Assembly (NCBI RefSeq): GCF_002892535.1
Contig: NZ_CP024847.1
Span: 744,001 to 808,000 of the forward strand
Direction: 5' to 3'
DNA from: Aquella oligotrophica
GTDB taxonomy: Bacteria > Pseudomonadota > Gammaproteobacteria > Burkholderiales > UBA11063
Length of the DNA stretch: 64,000 nt
Position 1 is the stretch's first letter. Every line of letters starts with the position of its first letter. The notes beneath the pieces are model-generated. The model was not told the origin of the DNA and made no database searches. It saw only the letters and a program-made list of their open reading frames with translations. Below are positions 10,302 to 49,012 of this stretch, piece by piece. The position numbers and the translations under genes were made by a program.

Positions 10302-11174
10302 ATGGCAAATAATTATAAGGGAATTATTCTAGCTGGTGGTAGTGGAACACGCTTACATCCGGCTACACTTGCAATGTCCAAGCAGTTACTTCCGGTTTAT
10401 GATAAGCCAATGATATATTATCCTTTATCAATATTGATGCTAGCAGAAATTCGCGAGGTGTTGATTATTTCAACGCCACAAGATATTCCTCGTTTTGAGC
10501 AATTGCTCGGTGATGGTAGTCAGTGGGGAATTAGCATTTCTTATGCGATTCAACCGAGCCCAGATGGTTTAGCCCAAGCATTTATAATTGGTGAAGAGTT
10601 TTTAAATGGTAGTCCAGCATGCTTGATCCTTGGCGATAATCTATTTTATGGTAGTGGAATGACAGAGTTGCTCATTTCTGCCCAGAATGCTAATGGGGCA
10701 ACGGTTTTTGCTTATCAGGTAGCTGATCCAGAGCGTTATGGCGTAGTTGAATTTGATACTGCAAAGAAAGTAATCAGTATTGAAGAAAAGCCCAAAGAGC
10801 CTAAATCAGATTTTGCGGTAACAGGTTTATATTTCTATGATAGTAGTGTAGTTAGCTTAGCCAAAGAAGTAAAGCCATCAGCACGTGGTGAACTTGAAAT
10901 TACTGATCTAAATCGCCTCTATTTGGAGCGAGGTAAATTAAATGTTATCACGATGAAGCGTGGTTTTGCTTGGCTTGATACTGGTACTCATGATTCATTA
11001 CTTGAAGCATCCAATTTTATCCAGACAGTTGAACATCGACAGGGAATCAAAATAGCTTGTTTGGAGGAAATTGCCCTTCATAAAGGTTGGTTGACAAAAG
11101 ATACTCTTCTTGAGCGCTTATCTGCTATGGGTAAAAGTACCTATGCTGAATATTTACGCCGGATAATAAAATAA
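10302..11174 (+). CDS. rfbA: Glucose-1-phosphate thymidylyltransferase
   Basis: This enzyme makes dTDP-glucose from dTTP and glucose-1-phosphate, the first step of dTDP-L-rhamnose synthesis. The protein has 290 residues, the normal RmlA length. The nucleotide-binding signature '[11 protein letters not shown]' is at about 12-22, followed by '[17 protein letters not shown]', 'GDNLFYG' and the sugar-site 'EEKPKEPKS'. It starts 9 bases after the preceding oxidoreductase and has GAGAAAG before the ATG. The family assignment is secure. Confidence 0.97.
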
Positions 11175-37594: not shown

Positions 37595-39118
37595 ATGCAA
37601 GAAGAAATAATCGCAGTAGTTCAAGATGTTGGATATTGTAGTGAAAATGTATTAACATCTTATTCGATTGAAGCTCCGGGTAGCTTTGCTGAAAAGCAGG
37701 GATTAGTCTACCGGGAAACAGTCAATTCTGTGCATAAGAAAAGCAAAGGGCAGTTCTTTAGCCCGTTTGAACTAGCAAAATTCATGGCTTCATTCTGCTC
37801 AATTAAATCTTCTCACATCACAATCCTTGATCCAGGCTGTGGTACAGGTATTTTATGTTGTACATTGGTTGAACATTTGGTAGATAATAGTAAAGTTAAG
37901 TCCATTGAATTAACTTGTTATGAAAATGATCCAGATATAATTCCATATCTAAAAAAATCGTTACTAAACCTACAACGTTGGTTAAATAAACGTAATATAA
38001 AATTCCTAACTAAGATAGTCCCAGATGATTTTATTATTTGTGCTAGTCAGATTGTTAATGACAAAAATGCAGCAAAATATGATGTTGTTATTTCAAACCC
38101 ACCATATTTTAAATTGGATGTGACAGACACAAAAGTTGCCTTGACTGAGAAAGAAATTGGTCGCCAGTTTAATATTTATTCCATGTTTATGGCATATGCA
38201 GCCAAGCTACTTAATTCAGCAGGTGAGATGATATTTGTCACTCCTCGTAGTTTTGCCTCCGGGAAATATTTTAGGGGATTTCGTGATAAGTTTCTGCGGG
38301 TAGTTACTATAGAAAAAATTCATGTGTTCCGTTCTCGTCGTGCTATTTTTCGCCGAGATGGGGTGCTGCAGGATAACATTATCCTTAAAGCAGTAAAAAA
38401 ATCTGATATTACTGGCGATGTAATTATTACTACATCGAATGACCTGCAGGATATAAATCAGCAGGAACATATGCGAATTGCACTCAGTAAGATTGTAAAC
38501 TATAGTTCAAGTGAAAAAATTCTTCATATCCCTACCACACGTGAAGAAGAAAAGGTTTTGGAGATATTCTCTAGTTGGGAAAATAAACTTTCTGATTTTG
38601 ATATTAAGGTTTCTACTGGTCGGGTGGTATATTTTCGGGCTAAAGAATTTCTCTTGCCGGAAGATTCTGAGAACTGCCAAAAAGTTCCGTTAATCTGGCT
38701 TCATAATGTTAATAACATGCTATTCGATTGGCCGTTAAATTATAAACAATGTCATCAATACCTTAAACTTGATGCAAAATCGCAACGCTTAACTATTCCA
38801 AATGGAAACTATATTTTTGTAAGACGCTTTAGTAGTAAAGATGATAAGCATCGCTTAATTGCTGCACCGTACATAAATAATAATCCCGAGTTTCCTGCTT
38901 TGGGAATTGAAAATCGGGTAAACTATTTATATAAAGCTAACGGTATGTTTACGCCTGAAGAGGTAATGGGATTATCTGAATTATTAAATAGCGAAATATA
39001 TAATCAATACTTCCATACTTTTAGCGGTAGCCTAAATATTAGTGCAACAGAATTGAGGGAGTTATCTATCCCAAATTTTGAAGAAATAAAATTAATAAAC
39101 AATCAAATATTTAAATAA
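37595..39118 (+). CDS. N6-adenine DNA methyltransferase (Eco57I/HincII-like)
   Basis: The protein has 507 residues. Motif X 'GQFFSP' (52-57), the SAM-binding 'DPGCGTG' (79-85) and the catalytic NPPY (168-171, in 'VVISNPPYFKL') are in the order of gamma-class N6-adenine methyltransferases. The C-terminal 200 residues look like a target recognition domain, ending in 'FSGSLNISATELRELSIPN', which is typical of type I/II recognition domains. No classical restriction endonuclease is adjacent. Instead a DUF262 gene follows after 31 bases, then a HEPN nuclease gene. The start lacks a clear ribosome binding site. Confidence 0.88.
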   Translation: MQEEIIAVVQDVGYCSENVLTSYSIEAPGSFAEKQGLVYRETVNSVHKKSKGQFFSPFELAKFMASFCSIKSSHITILDPGCGTGILCCTLVEHLVDNSKVKSIELTCYENDPDIIPYLKKSLLNLQRWLNKRNIKFLTKIVPDDFIICASQIVNDKNAAKYDVVISNPPYFKLDVTDTKVALTEKEIGRQFNIYSMFMAYAAKLLNSAGEMIFVTPRSFASGKYFRGFRDKFLRVVTIEKIHVFRSRRAIFRRDGVLQDNIILKAVKKSDITGDVIITTSNDLQDINQQEHMRIALSKIVNYSSSEKILHIPTTREEEKVLEIFSSWENKLSDFDIKVSTGRVVYFRAKEFLLPEDSENCQKVPLIWLHNVNNMLFDWPLNYKQCHQYLKLDAKSQRLTIPNGNYIFVRRFSSKDDKHRLIAAPYINNNPEFPALGIENRVNYLYKANGMFTPEEVMGLSELLNSEIYNQYFHTFSGSLNISATELRELSIPNFEEIKLINNQIFK

Positions 39119-39149
39119 TTTGATTTTAATATTAGATTAGGTAACATAA

Positions 39150-40265
39150 ATGAGTCAAAAGCAAATGGAGTTATTAACAAGTCAAATTGAAAAAGAGCGA
39201 AAAATTATAAAAACTGATAGCTATGCGATTTCTATAGGTGAATTGATTGCTATGTATAAAGATAATGAACTTGAGCTAACTCCTAATTACCAACGGTTAT
39301 TTCGTTGGGATAATGATCATAAAACAAAATTCATCGAGTCTATTATTATTGGTATTCCCTTGCCGCCGATATTTGTAGCGCAAAAAAAGGGGGCTACATG
39401 GAATATTGTTGATGGTTTACAAAGGGTTTCAACCATACTACAGTTAAGTGGCGATCTCAAATTAAAACTGCCAAATGGTGAGGAGCAACCACCATTAACA
39501 TTTATCAAACCAGAAAAATTAACTGCCATGGAAGGATTAACATGGGAAACGCTAGATGATGATACAAAAAGAATAATTCGGCGAACAAAGTTAGATGTAA
39601 AAATAATTGTAGTTGAAGATAACTACGTAGCGCAGTATGAATTATTCAAGCGACTCAATACTGGGGCAGTCCATTTAGAGCCACAAGAAATAAGAAATTG
39701 TTTAATTATTATGCTTAATGAGGAGTTTTACGAGAAAATAAATGAATTAAAAGATTTTGAGCCTTTTAGGAATTGTATTGCATTACAGCCAAAGAAATAT
39801 GAGATAGAGTACCATATGGAGTTGATTTTACGATATTTAATTCTAAAGCATAATAATATTGATTTCGCACGTTATAATAGCTATACGTTATTAAGTGATT
39901 TTTTTGATGAAGAAGCAAAAAATTTGGTGCTAGATGGAAGTTTAAATTTAAATCTAGAAATTGAAACTTTTAAAAGAGTTTTTCGATTACTAGATTCATT
40001 GCTTCAGAGTTCGGTTTTTAGAAAATATAACTCAGATAGGTGTAATATAGAGGGTGGGTTTTCAACGACATTATTTGATGTGATTACCTTAGGCATTTCT
40101 TCCAATCTTGATAAGTACGAACAATTATCACCACAGTTAGTAATTGAGAAAATTAGAGGTATAACAAACGATTCACAATACAATCAAAATTCTGATAGAG
40201 GGATTAAAGCTATAACAAGAATAAAATCAATGATTGAATTTTCAAAAAATTATTTTACTGAATGA
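39150..40265 (+). CDS. DUF262 (GmrSD N-terminal-like) protein
   Basis: The protein has 371 residues. 'SIGELIAMYKDNELEL' leads to 'NYQRLFRWDNDHKTKFIESI' (46-65), 'GIPLPPIFVAQ' and 'WNIVDGLQRVSTILQL' (84-99). These are the DUF262 core motifs, with DGQQR changed to DGLQR. DUF262 is the ParB/Srx-related nucleotide-binding domain of GmrS-type restriction systems. The HNH domain (DUF1524) of complete GmrSD proteins is absent. Its last four bases overlap the HEPN gene (ATGA), so the two are translationally coupled. Confidence 0.88.
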   Translation: MSQKQMELLTSQIEKERKIIKTDSYAISIGELIAMYKDNELELTPNYQRLFRWDNDHKTKFIESIIIGIPLPPIFVAQKKGATWNIVDGLQRVSTILQLSGDLKLKLPNGEEQPPLTFIKPEKLTAMEGLTWETLDDDTKRIIRRTKLDVKIIVVEDNYVAQYELFKRLNTGAVHLEPQEIRNCLIIMLNEEFYEKINELKDFEPFRNCIALQPKKYEIEYHMELILRYLILKHNNIDFARYNSYTLLSDFFDEEAKNLVLDGSLNLNLEIETFKRVFRLLDSLLQSSVFRKYNSDRCNIEGGFSTTLFDVITLGISSNLDKYEQLSPQLVIEKIRGITNDSQYNQNSDRGIKAITRIKSMIEFSKNYFTE

Positions 40266-41005
40266 ATATAGAACTGCTTGAAGAGCTTCTTGCTGCTGAA
40301 TCCGCTTGGAGAAAAAAGGAGATTGCTGATTTAATTCTCATTTCTGAAGGTAATGATAATCCACCTGTTATTTTGAAGTCTATTCTTTTACAGTTATATG
40401 CTCACTGGGAAGGATTAATAAAACGTAGCGCTAAGCTATATTTGAGATATATAAAAGAGCGTAATCACAAATTTCATGAAGTTGAATTAAATTTTAAAGC
40501 CCTAGTGGTTAAGAATATCATTGCAGAATGCATAAAGAATCAAAATTCATTGCATCTAGCTAATGAAATGAATATAATACAAAAATTAGAGTTGGAAAAT
40601 CTTAAATATGCTGTTGGGATCAATGTAGATAATGATCAAGACAACTCGATTATAGATACTGAATCAAACTTAACTCCAGAAGTGCTAAGAAAAATTCTTA
40701 ATGTTATTGGGCTGACTTACAGGCAAGAGTATGAAGCCAAGAGTAGCTACCTTGATAAGAATTTTCTTCATAGGAGGCATACAATTGCTCACGGTAGTAA
40801 GATTGAAAATGATGAAAGTTTTTGTTTGGATATTGTAACAATACTAAATTTAAGAAAACTTGTTTTTTCAATATTAGATATTATTATAGATGAAATTCTT
40901 GAATATGCAATAAATGGGTTTTATCTGGTGGATAATAAAGATAAGTTAGAGCAATATTTACAGCAACAAAAATCTCGGATACAAGCTGTTTTTTCTGAGC
41001 TTTAA
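40262..41005 (+). CDS. HEPN-domain putative RNase (MAE_28990/MAE_18760-like)
   Basis: The protein has 247 residues, almost all helical. 'LLQLYAHWEGLIKRSAKLYL' (about 43-62) and the RxxxxH motif 'RRHTIAHG' (Arg172, His177) identify a HEPN fold with an intact nuclease motif, of the type seen in abortive-infection and toxin proteins. It overlaps the DUF262 gene by 4 bases. The stop is followed within 30 bases by an IS5-type element. HEPN proteins of this shape are known beside DUF262 genes, though I cite this from memory. Confidence 0.8.
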   Translation: MNIELLEELLAAESAWRKKEIADLILISEGNDNPPVILKSILLQLYAHWEGLIKRSAKLYLRYIKERNHKFHEVELNFKALVVKNIIAECIKNQNSLHLANEMNIIQKLELENLKYAVGINVDNDQDNSIIDTESNLTPEVLRKILNVIGLTYRQEYEAKSSYLDKNFLHRRHTIAHGSKIENDESFCLDIVTILNLRKLVFSILDIIIDEILEYAINGFYLVDNKDKLEQYLQQQKSRIQAVFSEL

Positions 41006-41041: not shown

Positions 41042-41563
41042 TTAGAATCTTTTCAAAATTAAGCCTACAAAAGCAAGAGATACCATTTGTAGGCTAGTAC
41101 CTAAGTATCTCTCACAATTTTTCCATAATCTACGGCATTTCTCAAGCCAGCTAAAGGAACGCTCAACAATCCATCTCTTGGGTAAAACCACAAACTGATG
41201 CAGCTCATTTCTTTTAACAACTTCAACTCTAGCATTTAATATTCGATGGACTTCGGTTGCAAAGCTATCGCCTCTATAACCTCCATCTACCAATATATTC
41301 TGTACCCCAGCCAGATTACGTTTGGCTCCTTCAAACATTAATATTGCTCCTGCGCGGTCAGTTACATTTGCAGTTGTAACATGAATAGCATGTGGTAGTC
41401 CCTGCGTGTCTACTGCAATGTGACGCTTTATTCCTGATACTTTTTTACCCGCATCATAGCCCTTATTCTCGGCTGTATTAGTATTCTTCACGCTTTGTGC
41501 GTCTACTATGCAGAAACTCGTCATTGCGTTCCTGCCATTTTCGGTACGTACTAAGCCTACCAA
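41042..41563 (-). CDS. IS5-family transposase, downstream frame (OrfB)
   Basis: The frame of 173 codons carries the DDE core: 'CIVDAQSVKNT' (first Asp), 'LVDGGYRGDSF' (second Asp) and 'RWIVERSFSWLEKCRRL' (the Glu). The displayed start is a TTG beside the slippery A run; the real product is the OrfA-OrfB fusion. Confidence 0.88.
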   Translation of the reverse strand: MVGLVRTENGRNAMTSFCIVDAQSVKNTNTAENKGYDAGKKVSGIKRHIAVDTQGLPHAIHVTTANVTDRAGAILMFEGAKRNLAGVQNILVDGGYRGDSFATEVHRILNARVEVVKRNELHQFVVLPKRWIVERSFSWLEKCRRLWKNCERYLGTSLQMVSLAFVGLILKRF

Positions 41564-41834
41564 TTTTTTTTAAGACTATCTCTATAATACTGTCTTCATT
41601 GCTTTCTGGCTTTTTTGCCCACATGTTAAAGTAAAAATAAACTGTTTCCCATTTTGGAAAATCACTTGGTAACATTCGCCATTGGCAACCACTTTTGAGA
41701 ACATAGTAGACTGCGCAAAATACATCGTACAGATCTATTTTGCGAGGTTTTGTCTTTTTACGTGCTAATTCTAATTCTGGCAATATTAACTCAAATTGTT
41801 CTCTGCTTACGTCGCTTGGATATGATTTTCTCAT
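41478..41834 (-). CDS. IS5-family transposase, upstream frame (OrfA)
   Basis: This frame of 118 codons starts 'MRKSYPSDVSREQFELI' and contains the DUF4096-like N-terminal region ('CAVYYVLKSGCQWRMLPSDF'). The frame overlaps OrfB around an A8 run (41564-41571, minus), where a ribosomal frameshift joins them into one transposase. The tail after the run is the unshifted by-product. Confidence 0.88.
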   Translation of the reverse strand: MRKSYPSDVSREQFELILPELELARKKTKPRKIDLYDVFCAVYYVLKSGCQWRMLPSDFPKWETVYFYFNMWAKKPESNEDSIIEIVLKKIGRLSTYRKWQERNDEFLHSRRTKREEY

Positions 41835-41905: not shown

Positions 41906-42624
41906 GACAGTAGCTTTCTGTAGATCATCAAGTTCCAGAGTAATTAAATTAGGTAAGTGTGCACCCAGCTAGCCAGTTCACACCCAAGCTAGTTATCAAC
42001 TCGATAGTTGTAGTTGTTAGTATGAAAGTTCTCATATATCCCCCTTTTCCGCTAGTCTGATCTAGCTTAGATTTTATTGTAAGCAAAGAATTTTTAATAT
42101 AAGATAATATAAAAATCAGCAATAAAAAGAATAGTAACGGGTGAGAACATAGCTGTATAGGAGTTGAACCTATTAACTTACCCACTTGCATAATTTAACT
42201 ATCCCCAAATTATATCCGTTTCACTTAAAATAGTCAAAATTATATTACGATAAAAACATTGGTGTATCTCTTTACCAACATAAAAACCAATTCATTCAGC
42301 CAATAGGGCAACCATTAACTACACTCATAATGCTAAAATAAGACCCTATTAATATTCATAAATAATTAAAGAGTTACAATTAATGAAAAAGTATCATTCG
42401 CAAGTGTTTATACTAAGAAGCATGATTGCAATAGGTTGGTAGGGCGCATTTTTAGCCTTGAAGAAGTAGCATGGAATTGCTAGGTGTTATGTAGAAAAAG
42501 AATCGTCATATTTGGCTTCTGTAGCGGTTAGAGATAGATTCTGATGGGGTAATAGGTTAATTTGACGACACAATATAAGTAACGCTAAACTGCAATTATC
42601 TTCATTTAACTTCTTTAATTATGC
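41906..42624. other. Gene-free decayed region between IS element and pyr leader
   Basis: No intact gene is supported. Next to the IS, a minus-strand frame (41906-41968) reads 'LPNLITLELDDLQKATV' and looks like the tail of a lost gene. A tRNA-like fragment is at 42149-42202. A 19-codon frame from 42383 has no support. The rest is AT-rich. Confidence 0.5.
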
Positions 42625-42630
42625 TATAAT
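42625..42630 (+). promoter_or_regulatory. Promoter of the pyr operon
   Basis: TATAAT at 42625-42630 is preceded by TGC, making an extended -10 (TGnTATAAT). The -35 region is weak, as is usual with extended -10 promoters. The transcript would start near 42637 and reach the leader ORF about 20 bases later. Confidence 0.75.
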
Positions 42631-42656
42631 TTGCGGATTTTAAAAAAGGTAACCTA

Positions 42657-42734
42657 ATGCTTAAACCTAAATTTATTCAAGCCATCAATCTGATCCAGAT
42701 TGATTTATTGGCTCTTTTTGCATTGGTACCGTGA
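42657..42734 (+). CDS. pyr operon leader peptide (25 residues)
   Basis: This short frame begins 'MLKPKFIQAINLIQ' and ends 'LLALFALVP'. AAAGG lies 7 bases before its ATG. It has no protein-level function that can be seen; its role is inferred to be to let a ribosome follow RNA polymerase. It covers a hairpin followed by a T-rich tract and stops 12 bases before the terminator stem. This matches the arrangement before E. coli pyrBI and pyrE, where UTP level sets coupling between ribosome and polymerase. Confidence 0.75.
   Translation: MLKPKFIQAINLIQIDLLALFALVP
42684..42704 (+). promoter_or_regulatory. Transcription pause hairpin in the pyr leader
   Basis: ATCAATCTG and CAGATTGAT form a perfect 9-base-pair stem with the three-base loop ATC. 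A T-rich stretch (42705-42719, including CTCTTTTT) follows, where scarce UTP would hold the polymerase. Confidence 0.7.
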
Positions 42735-42745
42735 ATAACAGATTT

Positions 42746-42779
42746 AAAAACTCACTATTTTATTAGTGAGTTTTTTTTT
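42746..42779 (+). terminator. pyr attenuator
   Basis: The arms ACTCACTA and TAGTGAGT (8 base pairs, extendable by A-T pairs) around TTTTAT are followed by nine T residues. It lies between the leader peptide and pyrE, so it must be read through for expression of the operon. Confidence 0.9.
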
Positions 42780-42809: not shown

Positions 42810-43397
42810 ATGCTGGAAAAATTAATTTTGGATATGTATGATGTCGGAATGATTAAATTTGGTGAATTTACGCTTAAATCAGGCAAACAATCTTATGTCT
42901 ATGCAGACATTCGCACCGCAATCTCACATCCAACAATCTTTACCACTTTGTGTGATTTACTTTATAGCAAAATGACGGGGTTAAACTATGACTTAATTTG
43001 TGGTGTTCCATATTCTGCGCTGACTTTTGCCAGTGGAATAGCTTATGCCCACAAAATCCCTATGTTGCTTAAACGCAAAGAAGCTAAGGATTATGGCACA
43101 AAAAAAATCCTTGAGGGTAATTATAAATCTGGTGATCGCTGCTTAATAATTGAAGATGTAATCACAACTGGAATGAGTATCAGTGAAACTACTACAGTTA
43201 TTGAAGAAGCCGGAGTTAAGGTAAGCGATATTGTCTGCTTTGTAGATAGAAATCAAGGTGGGCGAGAAAGAATGCAATCTCAGGGATATACCTTACATAG
43301 CATTATTGATTTATATCAGCTGATTGATATTTTATTAGAACATGGCAAAATAAGTACAGAAGATAAAGCTAAAGCCGTAGCTTTGATTGGGGTGTAA
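42810..43397 (+). CDS. pyrE: Orotate phosphoribosyltransferase
   Basis: This enzyme joins orotate and PRPP to give OMP, step five of UMP synthesis. The protein has 195 residues. The PRPP-binding motif is 'CLIIEDVITTGMSISET' (about 112-128), and 'FTLKSGKQSYVYADIR' (about 21-36) covers the orotate side. ATAAGGA precedes the ATG. It is the first structural gene of the operon, directly behind the attenuator. The carA start lies one base after its stop. Confidence 0.94.
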   Translation: MLEKLILDMYDVGMIKFGEFTLKSGKQSYVYADIRTAISHPTIFTTLCDLLYSKMTGLNYDLICGVPYSALTFASGIAYAHKIPMLLKRKEAKDYGTKKILEGNYKSGDRCLIIEDVITTGMSISETTTVIEEAGVKVSDIVCFVDRNQGGRERMQSQGYTLHSIIDLYQLIDILLEHGKISTEDKAKAVALIGV

Positions 43398-43398
43398 G

Positions 43399-44466
43399 AT
43401 GCAAATGCAAAAAGCTTATTTAAAATTAGCAAATGGACGAATTTTTGAAGGACTAGCACCAGACTGGCAAACAGATAGCAGTTATGGTGAAGTGGTTTTT
43501 AATACCGGGATGACCGGCTATGAAGAAACCCTAACTGACCCATCATATTCAGGGCAGATTCTGACTTTCACCTTTCCCATCTTGGGTAATTATGGCGTAT
43601 CGGCTGGCAAACGTTGGGAGTCAGAGAAAATACATGCCAAAGGCGTAATTTGTGAGACTGTTTTTGATGAGCCAGCACATCATTCACAACGACAAACATT
43701 TTTAAGCTGGCTTAAACAGAATAATATACCACTTATTTGCGGGGTTGATACTCGTGAACTTACCAAAGTTATTCGTGAATATGGTGTTTTAAGCGGTGTT
43801 ATCACCACAAAAGCTGATTTAGAGCCAGATTTTAGCGATAGTATGACTCATGACTGGGTTAAGGAAGTTTCCCCTAAAGAGGTACAAACTATTGGTAATG
43901 GAAAATATAAGGTGATTTTGGTCGATTGCGGCGCTAAAGAAAATATTATCCGTTGTCTATTAAATTTCGATATTACCCTAAAAAGAGTCCCATTCGACTA
44001 TGACTATAGTAATGAAGATTATGATGGAGTGATGTTATCCAATGGTCCGGGCGACCCCAAATTATGTAATCAAACAGTAGCAGTTTTGGCTAAAGCAATG
44101 ACTAGAAACAAACCGATATTTGGTATTTGCCTTGGTTCACAACTTATGGCTCTTGCAATCGGTGCTAATACCTATAAACTCAAATATGGACATCGCGGAC
44201 ATAATCAGCCATGTATTGATTTAAAACGTGATCGCTGTTATCTGACTTCACAAAATCATAGCTATGCGGTTGATGATAAAACTTTGCCTAGTGATTGGGA
44301 AGTAACATTCCGTCATCTTAATGATAATACTGTCGCTGGTATAGCACACACAAGTGGCATGTATAGCGCAGTTCAATTCCATCCGGAAGCAAGTAGTGGA
44401 CCACAAGATACATTTTATCTGTTTGAACAGTTTTTTAACCAGATTCAGGCTGGAGGTAGCAAATAA
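43399..44466 (+). CDS. carA: Carbamoyl-phosphate synthase, small (glutaminase) subunit
   Basis: This subunit releases ammonia from glutamine for CarB. The protein has 355 residues. The N-terminal domain shows 'TGMTGYEETLTDPSYSGQI', and the glutaminase domain carries the nucleophile in 'IFGICLGSQLMALAIG' and the His-Glu pair in 'AVQFHPEASSGP'. The frame runs back into pyrE (43387), but the ATG at 43399 follows the pyrE stop with GGGGTG upstream. An ATG at 43405 is also possible. It overlaps carB by one base (TAATG). Confidence 0.96.
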   Translation: MQMQKAYLKLANGRIFEGLAPDWQTDSSYGEVVFNTGMTGYEETLTDPSYSGQILTFTFPILGNYGVSAGKRWESEKIHAKGVICETVFDEPAHHSQRQTFLSWLKQNNIPLICGVDTRELTKVIREYGVLSGVITTKADLEPDFSDSMTHDWVKEVSPKEVQTIGNGKYKVILVDCGAKENIIRCLLNFDITLKRVPFDYDYSNEDYDGVMLSNGPGDPKLCNQTVAVLAKAMTRNKPIFGICLGSQLMALAIGANTYKLKYGHRGHNQPCIDLKRDRCYLTSQNHSYAVDDKTLPSDWEVTFRHLNDNTVAGIAHTSGMYSAVQFHPEASSGPQDTFYLFEQFFNQIQAGGSK

Positions 44467-47400
44467 TGAAGAATATTCTGATTTTAGGCTCAGGTGGTTT
44501 ACGCGTTGGTCAGGCCGGAGAGTTTGATTACTCTGGTTCACAAGCAATCAAAGCCTTCAAAGAAGAAGGCTATCGAGTAATTTTGGTAAACCCTAATATC
44601 GCTACAGTGCAGACAGATAAATCAATGGCAGATGAGATTTATTTTGTGCCGCTACAGCAGGAGTTTGTTGCACCAATTATTGAAAAAGAGCAGATAAACC
44701 TGATTGCTCTAGGCTTTGGCGGACAAACTGCACTTAATCTTGGTTTAGAACTATATCATAGTGGCATCTTAGATAAACATAATGTAAAAGTATTAGGCTC
44801 AAGTGTAGAAACGATTGAAGCAACCGAAGATCGTGATATTTTCCGTGACTATCTGGAAAAAAACAAGGTAAAAACGCCAAAAAGTAAATCGGCAACTAGC
44901 ATTGATGAAGCAATTGCGGTTGGCCGCGAATTTGGCTATCCGTTAATGCTCCGTGCTGCGTTTTCTCTGGGCGGACTTGGTTCGGGTAAAGTTTTTAACG
45001 AAAAAGATCTGATTGATAAAACTAGTAAAGCATTAAGTACAACACCACAGGTATTACTTGAAGAATATCTGACTGGCTGGAAAGAGTTTGAATACGAGAT
45101 TGTCCGTGATATGAAAGGGAATAGCCTAACTATCTGCAATATGGAAAATCTTGATCCAATGGGTATCCACACTGGTGAAAGTATCGTAATTGCCCCAGCG
45201 CAAACTCTTAATGATGAAGAACATCAGAATCTACGCAATATTGCGCTTCAATGTGCCGAGATTTTTAATATCATTGGCGAATGTAATATTCAGTTTTCGG
45301 TAAATCCGGCTAATGGCGATTACCGGGTAATTGAGATGAATCCGCGCCTATCTCGTTCTTCAGCATTGGCATCAAAAGCAACTGGTTATCCACTCGCATT
45401 TGTGGCTGCCAAACTATGCCTTGGCTTTAGCCTCAACCAATTAACCAATCAAGTTACTAAAAAAACTACTGCTTTCTTTGAACCTGCACTTGATTATGTA
45501 GTGGTAAAAATTCCGCGTTGGGATACCCATAAATTACGCCTAGCAGAACGCACCATTGGTACTGAAATGAAATCAGTTGGTGAAGTGATGGGAATTGGAA
45601 GAACCTTCCCCGAAGCCTTACAAAAAGCAGTACAAATGTTAAATATTGGTGCTTCAGGCTTACATGACTATATCTGGCCAATTTTGAACCTGAAAAATGA
45701 AGTCGAATTTGCTACCGACCGCCGGATATTTGCCTTATATCGCTGGTTTTATGAAGGTGGTACAGTCAATGAAGCGCAACAGTTATCAAGAATTGATCCA
45801 TGGTTTTTGACACAAATTAAGCAGATTGCAGATATTGCTTTAGAAGTGAAATCTAGTCAATTAAATTCAGAACTATTACTTAAAGCTAAAAAATTTGGCT
45901 TTAGTGATAAAACTATTGCCAAACTTACAGAAGCAAATGAAGAGGCAATTCGGGCTAAGCGGTTGGAGTATGCTATTACGCCAGTAGTGAAACAGATTGA
46001 TACTGTTGCCAATGAGTTTACTGCCGAAACCAATTATCTTTACACGACTTACCATGGTAAATATCATGATATTAGTCCAACTGAAGCCACAGATAATCTA
46101 ATCTCCAATGGAGCTTATGTAATTATTGGTTCTGGACCATATTCAATTGGTTCATCAGTTGAATTTGACTGGTGTACTGTTAATTTGGCACGTCAGTTAC
46201 GTGCTCATGGTAAAAAAGTTATCATTCTAAACTCCAATCCTGAAACAGTATCAACCGATTATGATGAATCAGATCGGCTTTATTTTGAAGCATTGACTCT
46301 TGAACGGGTTTGCGATATTCTCGATTTTGAAAATGTGGCTGGTGTATGTGTTAGTGTTGGTGGACAAATTGCCAATAATTTAGCTTTAGCTTTGCATAAA
46401 CGTGGTTATCCAATTTTGGGTACTTCACCACTGGATATTGATAAAGCCGAAGATCGGGCTAAATTCTCCTCTATGCTAAATGAATTAAATATCGATCAGC
46501 CACGCTGGATTAATGCTACTAGCAGTGAAGAGATTCAGGCGTTTATCGCCGAAGTTGGTTTACCAGTATTAATTCGCCCATCATATGTATTATCTGGTGC
46601 AGCAATGAAAGTGGTTTCTGACCAAAACACCCTCAATAGTTACCTTAATGATGCGATGCTAATTTCCAATGAGCATCCGGTCGTGATTTCACAGTTTATC
46701 GAAAACGCTAAAGAATTGGAAATTGATGGAATTGCCCAAAACGGACGGATTGTTATTGATTCAATAAGTGAACATATTGAAAATGCAGGGGTACACTCCG
46801 GTGATGCAACGTTGGTATTTCCACCAGAACGCTTATATCTGAAAACTGTCAATCGTGCCCGTGATATTGCACGTAAAATAGTTAAAGCATTAAATATCAG
46901 CGGCCCATTTAATATGCAGTTTATTGCGCGGAATAATGAATTAAAGGTAATCGAATGTAATGTTCGTGCCTCGCGCTCATTCCCGTTCATTTCAAAAGTT
47001 AGTGGACAAAATCTGGTTGAATTGATGGCAAAGGTGTTCTTAAATCAGGAAATTACTCAAACCTATAATACTCTTGATTGTGGCGTAGTTGGCGTTAAAA
47101 GTCCAGTATTCTCGTATAGCCGCTTTAAAGGTTCGGATCCGGTGGCTCAGGTAGAGATGTCATCAACTGGTGAAGTTGCCTGTATTGGTAAAGATATGCT
47201 TGAGACATTCTATCAATCTTGGTTATCGGTGGGGCAGCGGATTAATAAAAAAGCTATTCTCCTAAGTGTCGATGATAAATATAAACAAAAAATCCTGCCA
47301 ATAGTTAAACAACTAAGTGATCAAGGTTGGCAGTTTGTTGCCACTGGTTCAACCCATGATATGCTTGTTGAAAGTGGGATTCAGTCAAAATTTGTCTTTA

Positions 47401-47669
47401 AATTATCGGAACAGGTAGAACCAAATATTGAACGTCCAATTATCAATAAAGAAGTTGGGCTAATTATTAATTTGCCAGGCGATAGCTTTAATACCAGCCA
47501 GCATTCCGATGGCTTCAAAATTCGTCGTCTCGCAATTGACTATCACATCCCGTTAGTAACTAATTTCCAATTAAGTGAAATACTACTAGAAAGTTTAACT
47601 GTAATATTCGATAAACCAATGACAGTTTATTCTTATAATGAATTATTAAAAGGTGCCAATAATGCTTAA
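44466..47669 (+). CDS. carB: Carbamoyl-phosphate synthase, large subunit
   Basis: This subunit makes carbamoyl phosphate from bicarbonate, ammonia and 2 ATP. The protein has 1067 residues, the full length. It holds two homologous ATP-grasp halves: 'LILGSGGLRVGQAGEFDYSG' opens the first, and 'IIGSGPYSIGSSVEFDWC' opens the second (near residue 552). 'MNPRLSRSSALASKATGYPL' and 'ECNVRASRSFPFISKVSG' are the matching metal-site regions. The C-terminal MGS-like allosteric domain ('LSVDDKYKQKILPIVKQL') would bind UMP and ornithine in known enzymes. It overlaps pyrB by 8 bases. Confidence 0.97.
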   Translation: MKNILILGSGGLRVGQAGEFDYSGSQAIKAFKEEGYRVILVNPNIATVQTDKSMADEIYFVPLQQEFVAPIIEKEQINLIALGFGGQTALNLGLELYHSGILDKHNVKVLGSSVETIEATEDRDIFRDYLEKNKVKTPKSKSATSIDEAIAVGREFGYPLMLRAAFSLGGLGSGKVFNEKDLIDKTSKALSTTPQVLLEEYLTGWKEFEYEIVRDMKGNSLTICNMENLDPMGIHTGESIVIAPAQTLNDEEHQNLRNIALQCAEIFNIIGECNIQFSVNPANGDYRVIEMNPRLSRSSALASKATGYPLAFVAAKLCLGFSLNQLTNQVTKKTTAFFEPALDYVVVKIPRWDTHKLRLAERTIGTEMKSVGEVMGIGRTFPEALQKAVQMLNIGASGLHDYIWPILNLKNEVEFATDRRIFALYRWFYEGGTVNEAQQLSRIDPWFLTQIKQIADIALEVKSSQLNSELLLKAKKFGFSDKTIAKLTEANEEAIRAKRLEYAITPVVKQIDTVANEFTAETNYLYTTYHGKYHDISPTEATDNLISNGAYVIIGSGPYSIGSSVEFDWCTVNLARQLRAHGKKVIILNSNPETVSTDYDESDRLYFEALTLERVCDILDFENVAGVCVSVGGQIANNLALALHKRGYPILGTSPLDIDKAEDRAKFSSMLNELNIDQPRWINATSSEEIQAFIAEVGLPVLIRPSYVLSGAAMKVVSDQNTLNSYLNDAMLISNEHPVVISQFIENAKELEIDGIAQNGRIVIDSISEHIENAGVHSGDATLVFPPERLYLKTVNRARDIARKIVKALNISGPFNMQFIARNNELKVIECNVRASRSFPFISKVSGQNLVELMAKVFLNQEITQTYNTLDCGVVGVKSPVFSYSRFKGSDPVAQVEMSSTGEVACIGKDMLETFYQSWLSVGQRINKKAILLSVDDKYKQKILPIVKQLSDQGWQFVATGSTHDMLVESGIQSKFVFKLSEQVEPNIERPIINKEVGLIINLPGDSFNTSQHSDGFKIRRLAIDYHIPLVTNFQLSEILLESLTVIFDKPMTVYSYNELLKGANNA

Positions 47670-48573
47670 TTTAGCCAAAGGATTAATCGCACTACAGGAT
47701 TTAAGTAAGGCGGATATCCTCTCAATTCTTACTCATGCACGTAGTTTCAAACAAGGGTTACGTAAAAATACTCTCGAAGGCAAAGTAATTGCTTCCTGTT
47801 TTTTTGAAGCTTCAACGCGTACCCGGCTGTCTTTTGAATCAGCCGTTGCTTACTTAGGTGGTAAAACCATTGGTTTTGCAGATAGTAGCGCTACCTCACA
47901 AACAAATAAAGGTGAAAGCTTTGTTGATACGCTACGAATGTTAAATTGTTATGCTGATGGTTTTATAATGCGTCATCCCAATGATGGTGCTGCCCGTTTG
48001 GCTTCCGAAATCATGTCAATCCCAGTGATTAATGCCGGCGATGGAGCGAATCAGCATCCGACCCAGACTCTACTTGATTTATTTTCAATACAAGATAGTC
48101 AGGGACAATTAGAAGAAATACATCTTGGTTTAATGGGCGATCTGAAATATAGCCGAACAGTCCACTCATTGATAGATGCCAGTAAATTATTCAATATGCG
48201 TCTATATTTGATTGCTCCTGCACCACTTAGAATACCTAGTGAGGATCTGATTGAGCTAAAACGTCATGGCATTAGTTATTCTTTTCATAATAGCCCAGAA
48301 GACGTAATTGATAAACTGGATTGTCTATACCTTACTCGCTTACAAAAAGAGCGCTTTAGTAGCGAAATTGATTGTAATTATAGGATTAATCTGGAGTTAC
48401 TCGCAAAAGCTAAGCCAAATCTACGGATACTTCATCCATTGCCAAGACTAGAGGAGTTACCAACAGAAATCGATAATACGCCATATGCTTATTATTTTGA
48501 ACAAGCAAGGAATGGACTTTTTGTGCGGCAGGCATTATTAGACATAATTTTTGGAGGCTATGATGGCAAATAA
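47662..48573 (+). CDS. pyrB: Aspartate carbamoyltransferase, catalytic chain
   Basis: This enzyme joins carbamoyl phosphate and aspartate, the committed step of pyrimidine synthesis. The carbamoyl-phosphate motif 'EASTRTRLSFESAVAYLGG' is near residue 50, 'QHPTQTLLDLFSIQ' near 130, and 'LHPLPRLEELP' near 265. I place the start at the ATG 47662, with AAAGG upstream; a GTG at 47653 opens the longer frame. This gives 303 residues. It overlaps pyrI by 11 bases, fitting the joint holoenzyme. Confidence 0.96.
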   Translation: MLNLAKGLIALQDLSKADILSILTHARSFKQGLRKNTLEGKVIASCFFEASTRTRLSFESAVAYLGGKTIGFADSSATSQTNKGESFVDTLRMLNCYADGFIMRHPNDGAARLASEIMSIPVINAGDGANQHPTQTLLDLFSIQDSQGQLEEIHLGLMGDLKYSRTVHSLIDASKLFNMRLYLIAPAPLRIPSEDLIELKRHGISYSFHNSPEDVIDKLDCLYLTRLQKERFSSEIDCNYRINLELLAKAKPNLRILHPLPRLEELPTEIDNTPYAYYFEQARNGLFVRQALLDIIFGGYDGK

Positions 48574-49012
48574 AAAGATTGGCGCGATTGAAAATGGTAT
48601 AAATCTGGATCATATTCCTCAGGGTAATGCGTGGTATATTATTAAGTTACTTAAACTGGAGCGCAAATATCCAGTCGGAATTGGGCTTAATCTCTTGAGT
48701 AAACGGATGGGAGTTAAAGATCTAGTAAAGGTAGAAAACTACTTCCTGACTGATAAGCAATTAAAGGCTGTAAGTGTTTTTGCACCGGGTGCAACTTATA
48801 GCGAAATTCGTAATTATGAGGTAGTCCGCAAAATCCAGTTAACACTGCCGGAAAGTATCGATGAGCTGATCATATGTCCGAATCACCGTTGTATTTCCCA
48901 TCAGTATCGTTCCTTGTTTAGATTAAGTTACAGTAATGAAAATGCGATTGCTCAGTGTCATTACTGTGAACATCATTTTAACTTGTCAGATTTGAATGCG
49001 TTCCAGTTGTAA
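48563..49012 (+). CDS. pyrI: Aspartate carbamoyltransferase, regulatory chain
   Basis: This chain binds CTP or ATP and makes the catalytic chain allosteric. The protein has 149 residues. 'GAIENGINLDHIPQGNAWYI' forms the nucleotide-binding start, and the zinc domain shows four cysteines in 'CPNHRCISH' and 'AQCHYCEHHF'. The start at 48563 has GGAGG at a 5-base spacing; the ATG at 48560 is too close, and 48551 is a TTG. It closes the pyrE-carA-carB-pyrB-pyrI operon. Confidence 0.95.
   Translation: MANKKIGAIENGINLDHIPQGNAWYIIKLLKLERKYPVGIGLNLLSKRMGVKDLVKVENYFLTDKQLKAVSVFAPGATYSEIRNYEVVRKIQLTLPESIDELIICPNHRCISHQYRSLFRLSYSNENAIAQCHYCEHHFNLSDLNAFQL

Follow-up and report, generated by a model that had tools for sequence, protein, structure and literature searches.

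The segment at 42622–42779, upstream of pyrE in the freshwater bacterium Aquella oligotrophica P08, is very probably a transcription attenuator of the pyrBI type, which would sense UTP and adjust the expression of pyrE-carA-carB-pyrB-pyrI. Positions refer to the window, that is, the whole 64,000-nucleotide stretch of DNA that we analysed, which comes from a genome consisting of one 2,820,660-bp contig. Judged by the features that can be tested in a sequence, the leader belongs to the pyrBI kind, and both PyrR-type and amino-acid-type attenuation fail their own defining tests at this site. A preliminary description of the same DNA had proposed the logic of E. coli pyrBI, and this proposal is now supported by a promoter, open reading frame (ORF) and terminator geometry that recurs in relatives with unrelated leader peptides. 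The parts listed in that description are present, but it overlooked two others: a T run at the transcription start and a long-range helix over the ribosome binding site (RBS) of the leader.

All elements of the leader lie on the forward (+) strand. An extended -10 promoter (TGCTATAAT) is read directly at 42622–42630, its start being corrected here from 42625, and is identical or nearly so in all congeners with the leader. The seventh base past the -10 is the predicted transcription start, so the RNA would begin with ATTTT (42637–42641), whose U-tract at +2 to +5 is a candidate site of UTP-dependent reiterative transcription. A Shine-Dalgarno sequence, AAGG (42646–42649), stands 7 nt before the ATG of a leader ORF of 25 codons plus stop (MLKPKFIQAINLIQIDLLALFALVP; 42657–42734), which has counterparts in all nine dissimilar leaders of the genus. 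Inside this ORF, a perfect 9-bp hairpin (ATCAATCTG-ATC-CAGATTGAT; 42684–42704), a candidate pause hairpin, is followed by the U-tract CTTTTT (42714–42719), a predicted UTP-sensitive pause region. The attenuator itself is an intrinsic terminator at 42746–42779, recognized in both the sequence and the predicted fold, with a 12-bp stem (arms 42746–42757 and 42764–42775), a 6-nt loop and a T9 run (42771–42779). It sits between the promoter and the first pyr gene, and its stem begins 11 nt past the leader stop codon, which would bring a translating ribosome to the terminator foot. The 143-nt leader as a whole has a folding z of -6.3 against dinucleotide shuffles.

Downstream genes were identified with NCBIfam models, and the matches agree with the gene order given in the preliminary description. 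The genes pyrE (orotate phosphoribosyltransferase, 42810–43397; TIGR00336, 134 bits), carA (43399–44466; TIGR01368), carB (44466–47669; TIGR01369) and pyrB (47662–48573; TIGR00670), all on the + strand, are equivalog matches above cut-off. The fifth, pyrI (48551–49012, +, start codon uncertain), encodes the ATCase regulatory chain; it scores 128 bits with TIGR00240, slightly below the curated cut-off of 148.6, and is above cut-off with PF01948. Many congeners likewise have pyrE-carA-carB and then pyrB-pyrI. As a side observation, pyrBI has been relocated away from carB in three of them (L098 in G007, L110 in G005 and L101 in G004); the leader remains with pyrE-carA, and no leader of its own is visible at the relocated pyrBI. 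A separate leader was also sought at the relocated pyrB genes of G005, G007 and G020, and none was seen. Within the window genome, no leader of the pyrE type was found at pyrD, pyrF, the pyrC candidate, upp or uraA.

The surroundings of the operon deserve a brief mention. An IS5-family transposase in two overlapping minus-strand frames (41042–41834) lies ~0.8 kb upstream of the pyrE promoter, and 37595–41005 holds a row of methyltransferase-like, DUF262-like and unknown ORFs (assigned by eye), possibly a defence cluster. In G019, the closest relative, the sequence upstream of the leader is fully divergent and conservation begins right at the extended -10 (TTATGCTATAAT). Its locus (L093) carries a partial second copy of carA at 10850–11091, ~2.4 kb upstream of the pyrE leader; the flank upstream of this copy is unrelated to that of the window, identity starting exactly at TTATGCTATAAT. 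The PyrE of the genus (in the window, 42810–43397) scores best with PRK13809 (NF010382, slightly below cut-off) and not with the PRK00455 group, and other PyrE proteins of the order are only ~30% identical to it, so a foreign origin of pyrE is possible.

In the mechanism that we propose, plentiful UTP would let the polymerase cross the U-tract fast with no ribosome following closely; the terminator would then fold and transcription would stop before pyrE. Scarce UTP would slow the polymerase in the U-rich tract; a ribosome would enter the leader, advance as far as the stop codon and there cover the terminator foot, so letting the polymerase read through. This follows the accepted model for pyrL, in which the polymerase is slow at low UTP and the coupled ribosome prevents the terminator from forming (PMC10135430). 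In E. coli, a stop codon a few nucleotides before a terminator strongly lowers termination, which in one system is full only beyond ~27 nt; the stop-to-stem distances lie within the span over which intrinsic terminators of E. coli are repressed by a ribosome at the stop codon (PMC4824070). Two further steps may add to this core. At high UTP, the polymerase would stutter on the initial ATTTT and abandon the transcript. Moreover, the segment right after the U-tract, once transcribed, would pair with, and so close, the RBS and start codon of the leader. Slowing of the polymerase in the U-tract would keep the RBS open for longer, with the helix acting as a loading deadline, and the U-tract would thereby time both ribosome loading and ribosome catch-up.

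Conservation was assessed in 23 genomes of what is the sole sampled genus of its family. A close PyrE is encoded in 17 of them, and 13 of these 17 have a leader terminator before pyrE; at loci L014–L017, pyrE has no attenuator. In every one of the nine dissimilar leaders of the genus, the ORF ends no more than 15 nt from the terminator or runs through it (Fisher 2e-4 with each leader shuffled, the criterion having been picked after the leaders were seen). The stop codon falls 0–15 nt before the stem in the window and in L004, L006, L007, L008 and L010, and the ORF continues into or through the stem in L011, L012 and L018, as it does in E. coli pyrL. The extended -10 is kept among all nine. In the clade A congeners, which form the stop-before-stem group, the stem begins between +111 and +121 even though the intervening sequences hardly align. 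The comparison of relatives' pyrE leaders that the preliminary description had put forward is thus borne out for the ORF and the terminator, which recur, but not for the pause hairpin, which does not. No relative was found in viral contigs.

What the ORF encodes appears to matter little. The nine dissimilar leaders of the genus have no residue run or codon run in common, and a conserved small protein was rejected as a reading because the peptides are unalignable between clades. In two of three close leader pairs, non-synonymous codon changes outnumber synonymous ones. Peptides that are unrelated between clades and change freely in close pairs indicate that translation is kept, not the peptide. 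This bears on an attenuator of the trp/his type, in which a ribosome stalling at tandem regulatory codons would switch alternative hairpins in response to an amino acid. A translated leader does precede the terminator, and Rfam returns Phe_leader below threshold, at 20 bits (cut-off 55; E 0.46). Yet the leaders share no amino acid or codon run, the predicted fold holds no competing antiterminator, and the target genes make pyrimidines. The carAB genes also serve arginine, and the window leader has no arginine codons. Amino-acid sensing is therefore highly improbable here.

Attenuation of the PyrR type, in which uridine nucleotides and the RNA-binding protein PyrR control the terminator, would equally place a terminator before a pyr operon. 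The preliminary description had recognized no PyrR-binding sequence, and the Rfam search agrees, returning no PyrR RNA site, whether at threshold or below it. The protein is missing as well: the genome has eight PRTase-family matches, and none resembles PyrR. These comprise PyrE, Upp and an HGPRTase above cut-off, and Prs, Apt, PurF-like and ComF-like proteins assigned by sequence. PyrR attenuation is already largely refuted by these results, and we give it next to no probability.

The pyrBI-type reading gains a second recurring feature from the transcription start. In clade A, the predicted +1 mostly precedes a T run (ATTTT, ATTTTTT, ATTTTTTT, ATTTTT, GTTTTG), and the window, with ATTTT at the inferred +1, has at least three T directly after a purine. 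Such a start occurs at the 6th to 8th base past the -10 in 5/9 dissimilar attenuated leaders, against 7/115 other extended -10 sites of the same DNA with the pyrE sites left out (P 9e-5), and a search beyond the pyrE locus showed the motif to be essentially confined to pyrE. Among pyrBI leaders from f28 and f51, two further families of the order, the start almost always reads GTTTG, GTTTTG, ATTTTG or ATTTTTTTC, and none of the other -10-like sites at these loci (0/21 and 0/5, respectively) has such a start; it is also found in some leaders of a third family, f44. The E. coli upp and codBA promoters share the purine and T run, reading TATAATCCGTCGATTTTTTTTG and TAGAATGCGGCGGATTTTTTG, respectively, at the start, as does carAB P1; the Aquella start is a predicted one, and the window differs in having only T4. 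In these three E. coli cases, control acts at initiation and not through a leader-peptide attenuator. The carAB start is GUUUGC; pyrBI, codBA, upp and carAB are all established cases of UTP-dependent reiterative transcription (PMC6245113). The resemblance of the pyrE start to those of upp, codBA and carAB suggests UTP-dependent reiterative initiation in Aquella too. At two loci without an attenuator, L015 (G009) and L017 (G018), a T run still stands at the predicted pyrE start (ATTTTTT and GTTT, respectively), suggesting that initiation control can persist alone.

Could initiation control be all there is? On that account, the terminator would be constitutive and partial, the ORF a product of chance, and pyrimidines would act only through reiterative transcription at ATTTT. 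The enriched T-run starts, which L015 and L017 also have, are in keeping with it, and a single ORF reaching the terminator is expected by chance in 13% of shuffles for the window leader alone. However, the ORF reaches the terminator in 9/9 dissimilar leaders, ORFs of other families also end at or in the stem, and the complementarity between the leader RBS and a downstream segment (described below) implies selection on leader translation. We consider initiation-only control improbable.

The pause elements inside the ORF fare differently from the pyrBI-type geometry. The preliminary description had reported a pause hairpin and a T-rich tract there, and both are present in the window, but the hairpin is not conserved. 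A perfect stem of at least 9 bp appears in ~0.1% of shuffles of the window leader (p ~0.001), whereas the stems of relatives measure 4–6 bp, which is chance level, and folding energies of the ORF body are no better than those of shuffles (Fisher 0.25). The 9-bp hairpin is hence best seen as a detail of this species. For the pause in E. coli pyrL, independence from a hairpin has been reported (PMC9291695). A conserved mid-leader U-tract was also looked for, and the T-rich peak across relatives is not significant. T-rich positions are enriched 3–15 nt before the terminator stem in the leaders of relatives.

The predicted fold pairs the Shine-Dalgarno side and start codon of the leader with the segment directly after the U-tract. 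The RBS/start-codon arm (GGUAaCCuAAUGC; 42648–42660) appears in both the minimum free energy (MFE) and the centroid structure, and its partner, the anti-RBS arm (GCAUUGGUACC; 42720–42730), is backed by the predicted fold and by duplex energies compared with shuffles (p 0.015–0.05 for the window leader, varying with the zones used). Clade A congeners pair at the same place with different sequences, for example AGGUGAUAAUU/AAUUAUCACUU in L010. In E. coli pyrBI, CGGGAGGA pairs with TCUUCCCG inside the U-rich tract. The helix first drew attention in clade A and was then tested elsewhere by fixed rules, comparing the real 5′ zone with the last 55 nt before the stem and shuffling the 3′ zones. Combined by Fisher's method, the values are 3e-4 for clade A, 0.005 for f28, 0.001 for f44, 0.2 for f51, and 0.002 and 0.015 for the two gammaproteobacterial groups. 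Over 28 dissimilar pyr leaders, the helix exceeds shuffles at 4e-7, a figure that assumes independence, which leaders from one family do not fully have. Controls gave 0.91 overall for reversed sequences, 0.99 with the RBS taken from the first structural gene at the same loci, and 0.35, 0.08 and 0.24 when the RBS of one leader was set against the 3′ zone of another. When the 5′ zone is slid along the leader, the signal peaks at the RBS and weakens further into the ORF. Column-wise covariation is modest, with double changes in 2/10 pairs (one f61 leader set) and register shifts between leaders.

The helix is absent from L011, L012 and L018. In L012, L013 and L018, the leader RNA carries at its 5′ end a 9-bp hairpin (TTAATTTGA/TCAAATTAA), which ends just before the start codon and contains AATTTG, the start sequence of E. 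coli pyrBI. In that clade, this 5′ hairpin may replace the long-range RBS helix.

For pyrBI-type attenuators of beta- and gammaproteobacteria, including that of E. coli, we tentatively suggest, while thinking it rather doubtful, that a segment at or after the U-rich tract refolds onto the leader RBS, and that polymerase speed there, and hence UTP, would set how long the RBS stays open, besides setting the ribosome lag. A competing possibility, to which we give somewhat less than an even chance and which is compatible with the attenuator itself, is that the helix is no timing gate: it could shut off leader translation once an RNA is finished or terminated, or serve as a late pause-stabilizing hairpin before the terminator. 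By our estimate, the helix would close only with the polymerase ~14 nt past 42730 and all but at the terminator, leaving ribosomes that load late little scope to affect termination; the enrichment of T-rich positions shortly before the stem points the same way. Against this, the anti-RBS arm directly follows the U-tract here and its E. coli counterpart overlaps the U-rich tract, which is the order expected for timing by UTP. The RBS/anti-RBS element is apparently a shared and undescribed part of these leaders and E. coli pyrBI; no description of it was found in the literature searched, outside the primary pyrBI papers and a 2008 review.

The layout is not confined to this genus. PyrI occurs in a minority of the order (42/399 genomes), and of 29 pyrBI loci read outside the genus, 23 carry a -10 and a terminator 22–84 nt before pyrB, with an ORF whose end lies close to, within or past the terminator. 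These leaders recur in the families f28, f44 and f51; they resemble the Aquella leader in how the ORF ends, and differ from it in preceding pyrBI instead of pyrE. As a positive control, the same script recovered gammaproteobacterial leaders, mostly with AATTTG starts, an ORF at ~+19 to +26 and a stem at ~+108 to +136.

Compared with E. coli pyrBI (pyrL; sequence read from MG1655), the Aquella leader has the same order of -10, start, RBS, ORF, U-rich tract and terminator, at nearly equal dimensions (ORF at +19 and stem at ~+110 in E. coli; ORF at +21 and stem at +110 to +114 in the window). Both have a U-containing start region (AATTTG in E. coli), and the E. coli RBS is likewise complementary to the U-rich tract (CGGGAGGA/TCTTCCCG). 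On the other hand, the 44-codon ORF of E. coli runs through the terminator whereas that of Aquella stops 11 nt before it, the leader peptides are unrelated, and E. coli controls pyrBI alone instead of pyrE-carAB-pyrBI. With E. coli rph-pyrE, Aquella shares pyrE as the controlled gene and, where rph is intact, an upstream reading frame whose translation stops a short way before the terminator. In E. coli that frame is the full enzyme gene rph (truncated in MG1655); in Aquella it is a 25-codon leader.

Taken together, these observations extend the textbook pyrBI mechanism to the lineage of Aquella and to three further families within the order. A single Aquella leader would command five genes, and with them the synthesis of carbamoyl phosphate, carbamoyl aspartate and OMP. 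Across 28 dissimilar natural leaders, only the start-site T run, the ORF-to-terminator geometry and the RBS complementarity persist, and neither the peptide nor the pause hairpin does. Should the RBS/anti-RBS helix prove functional, a step would be missing from the accepted pyrBI model.
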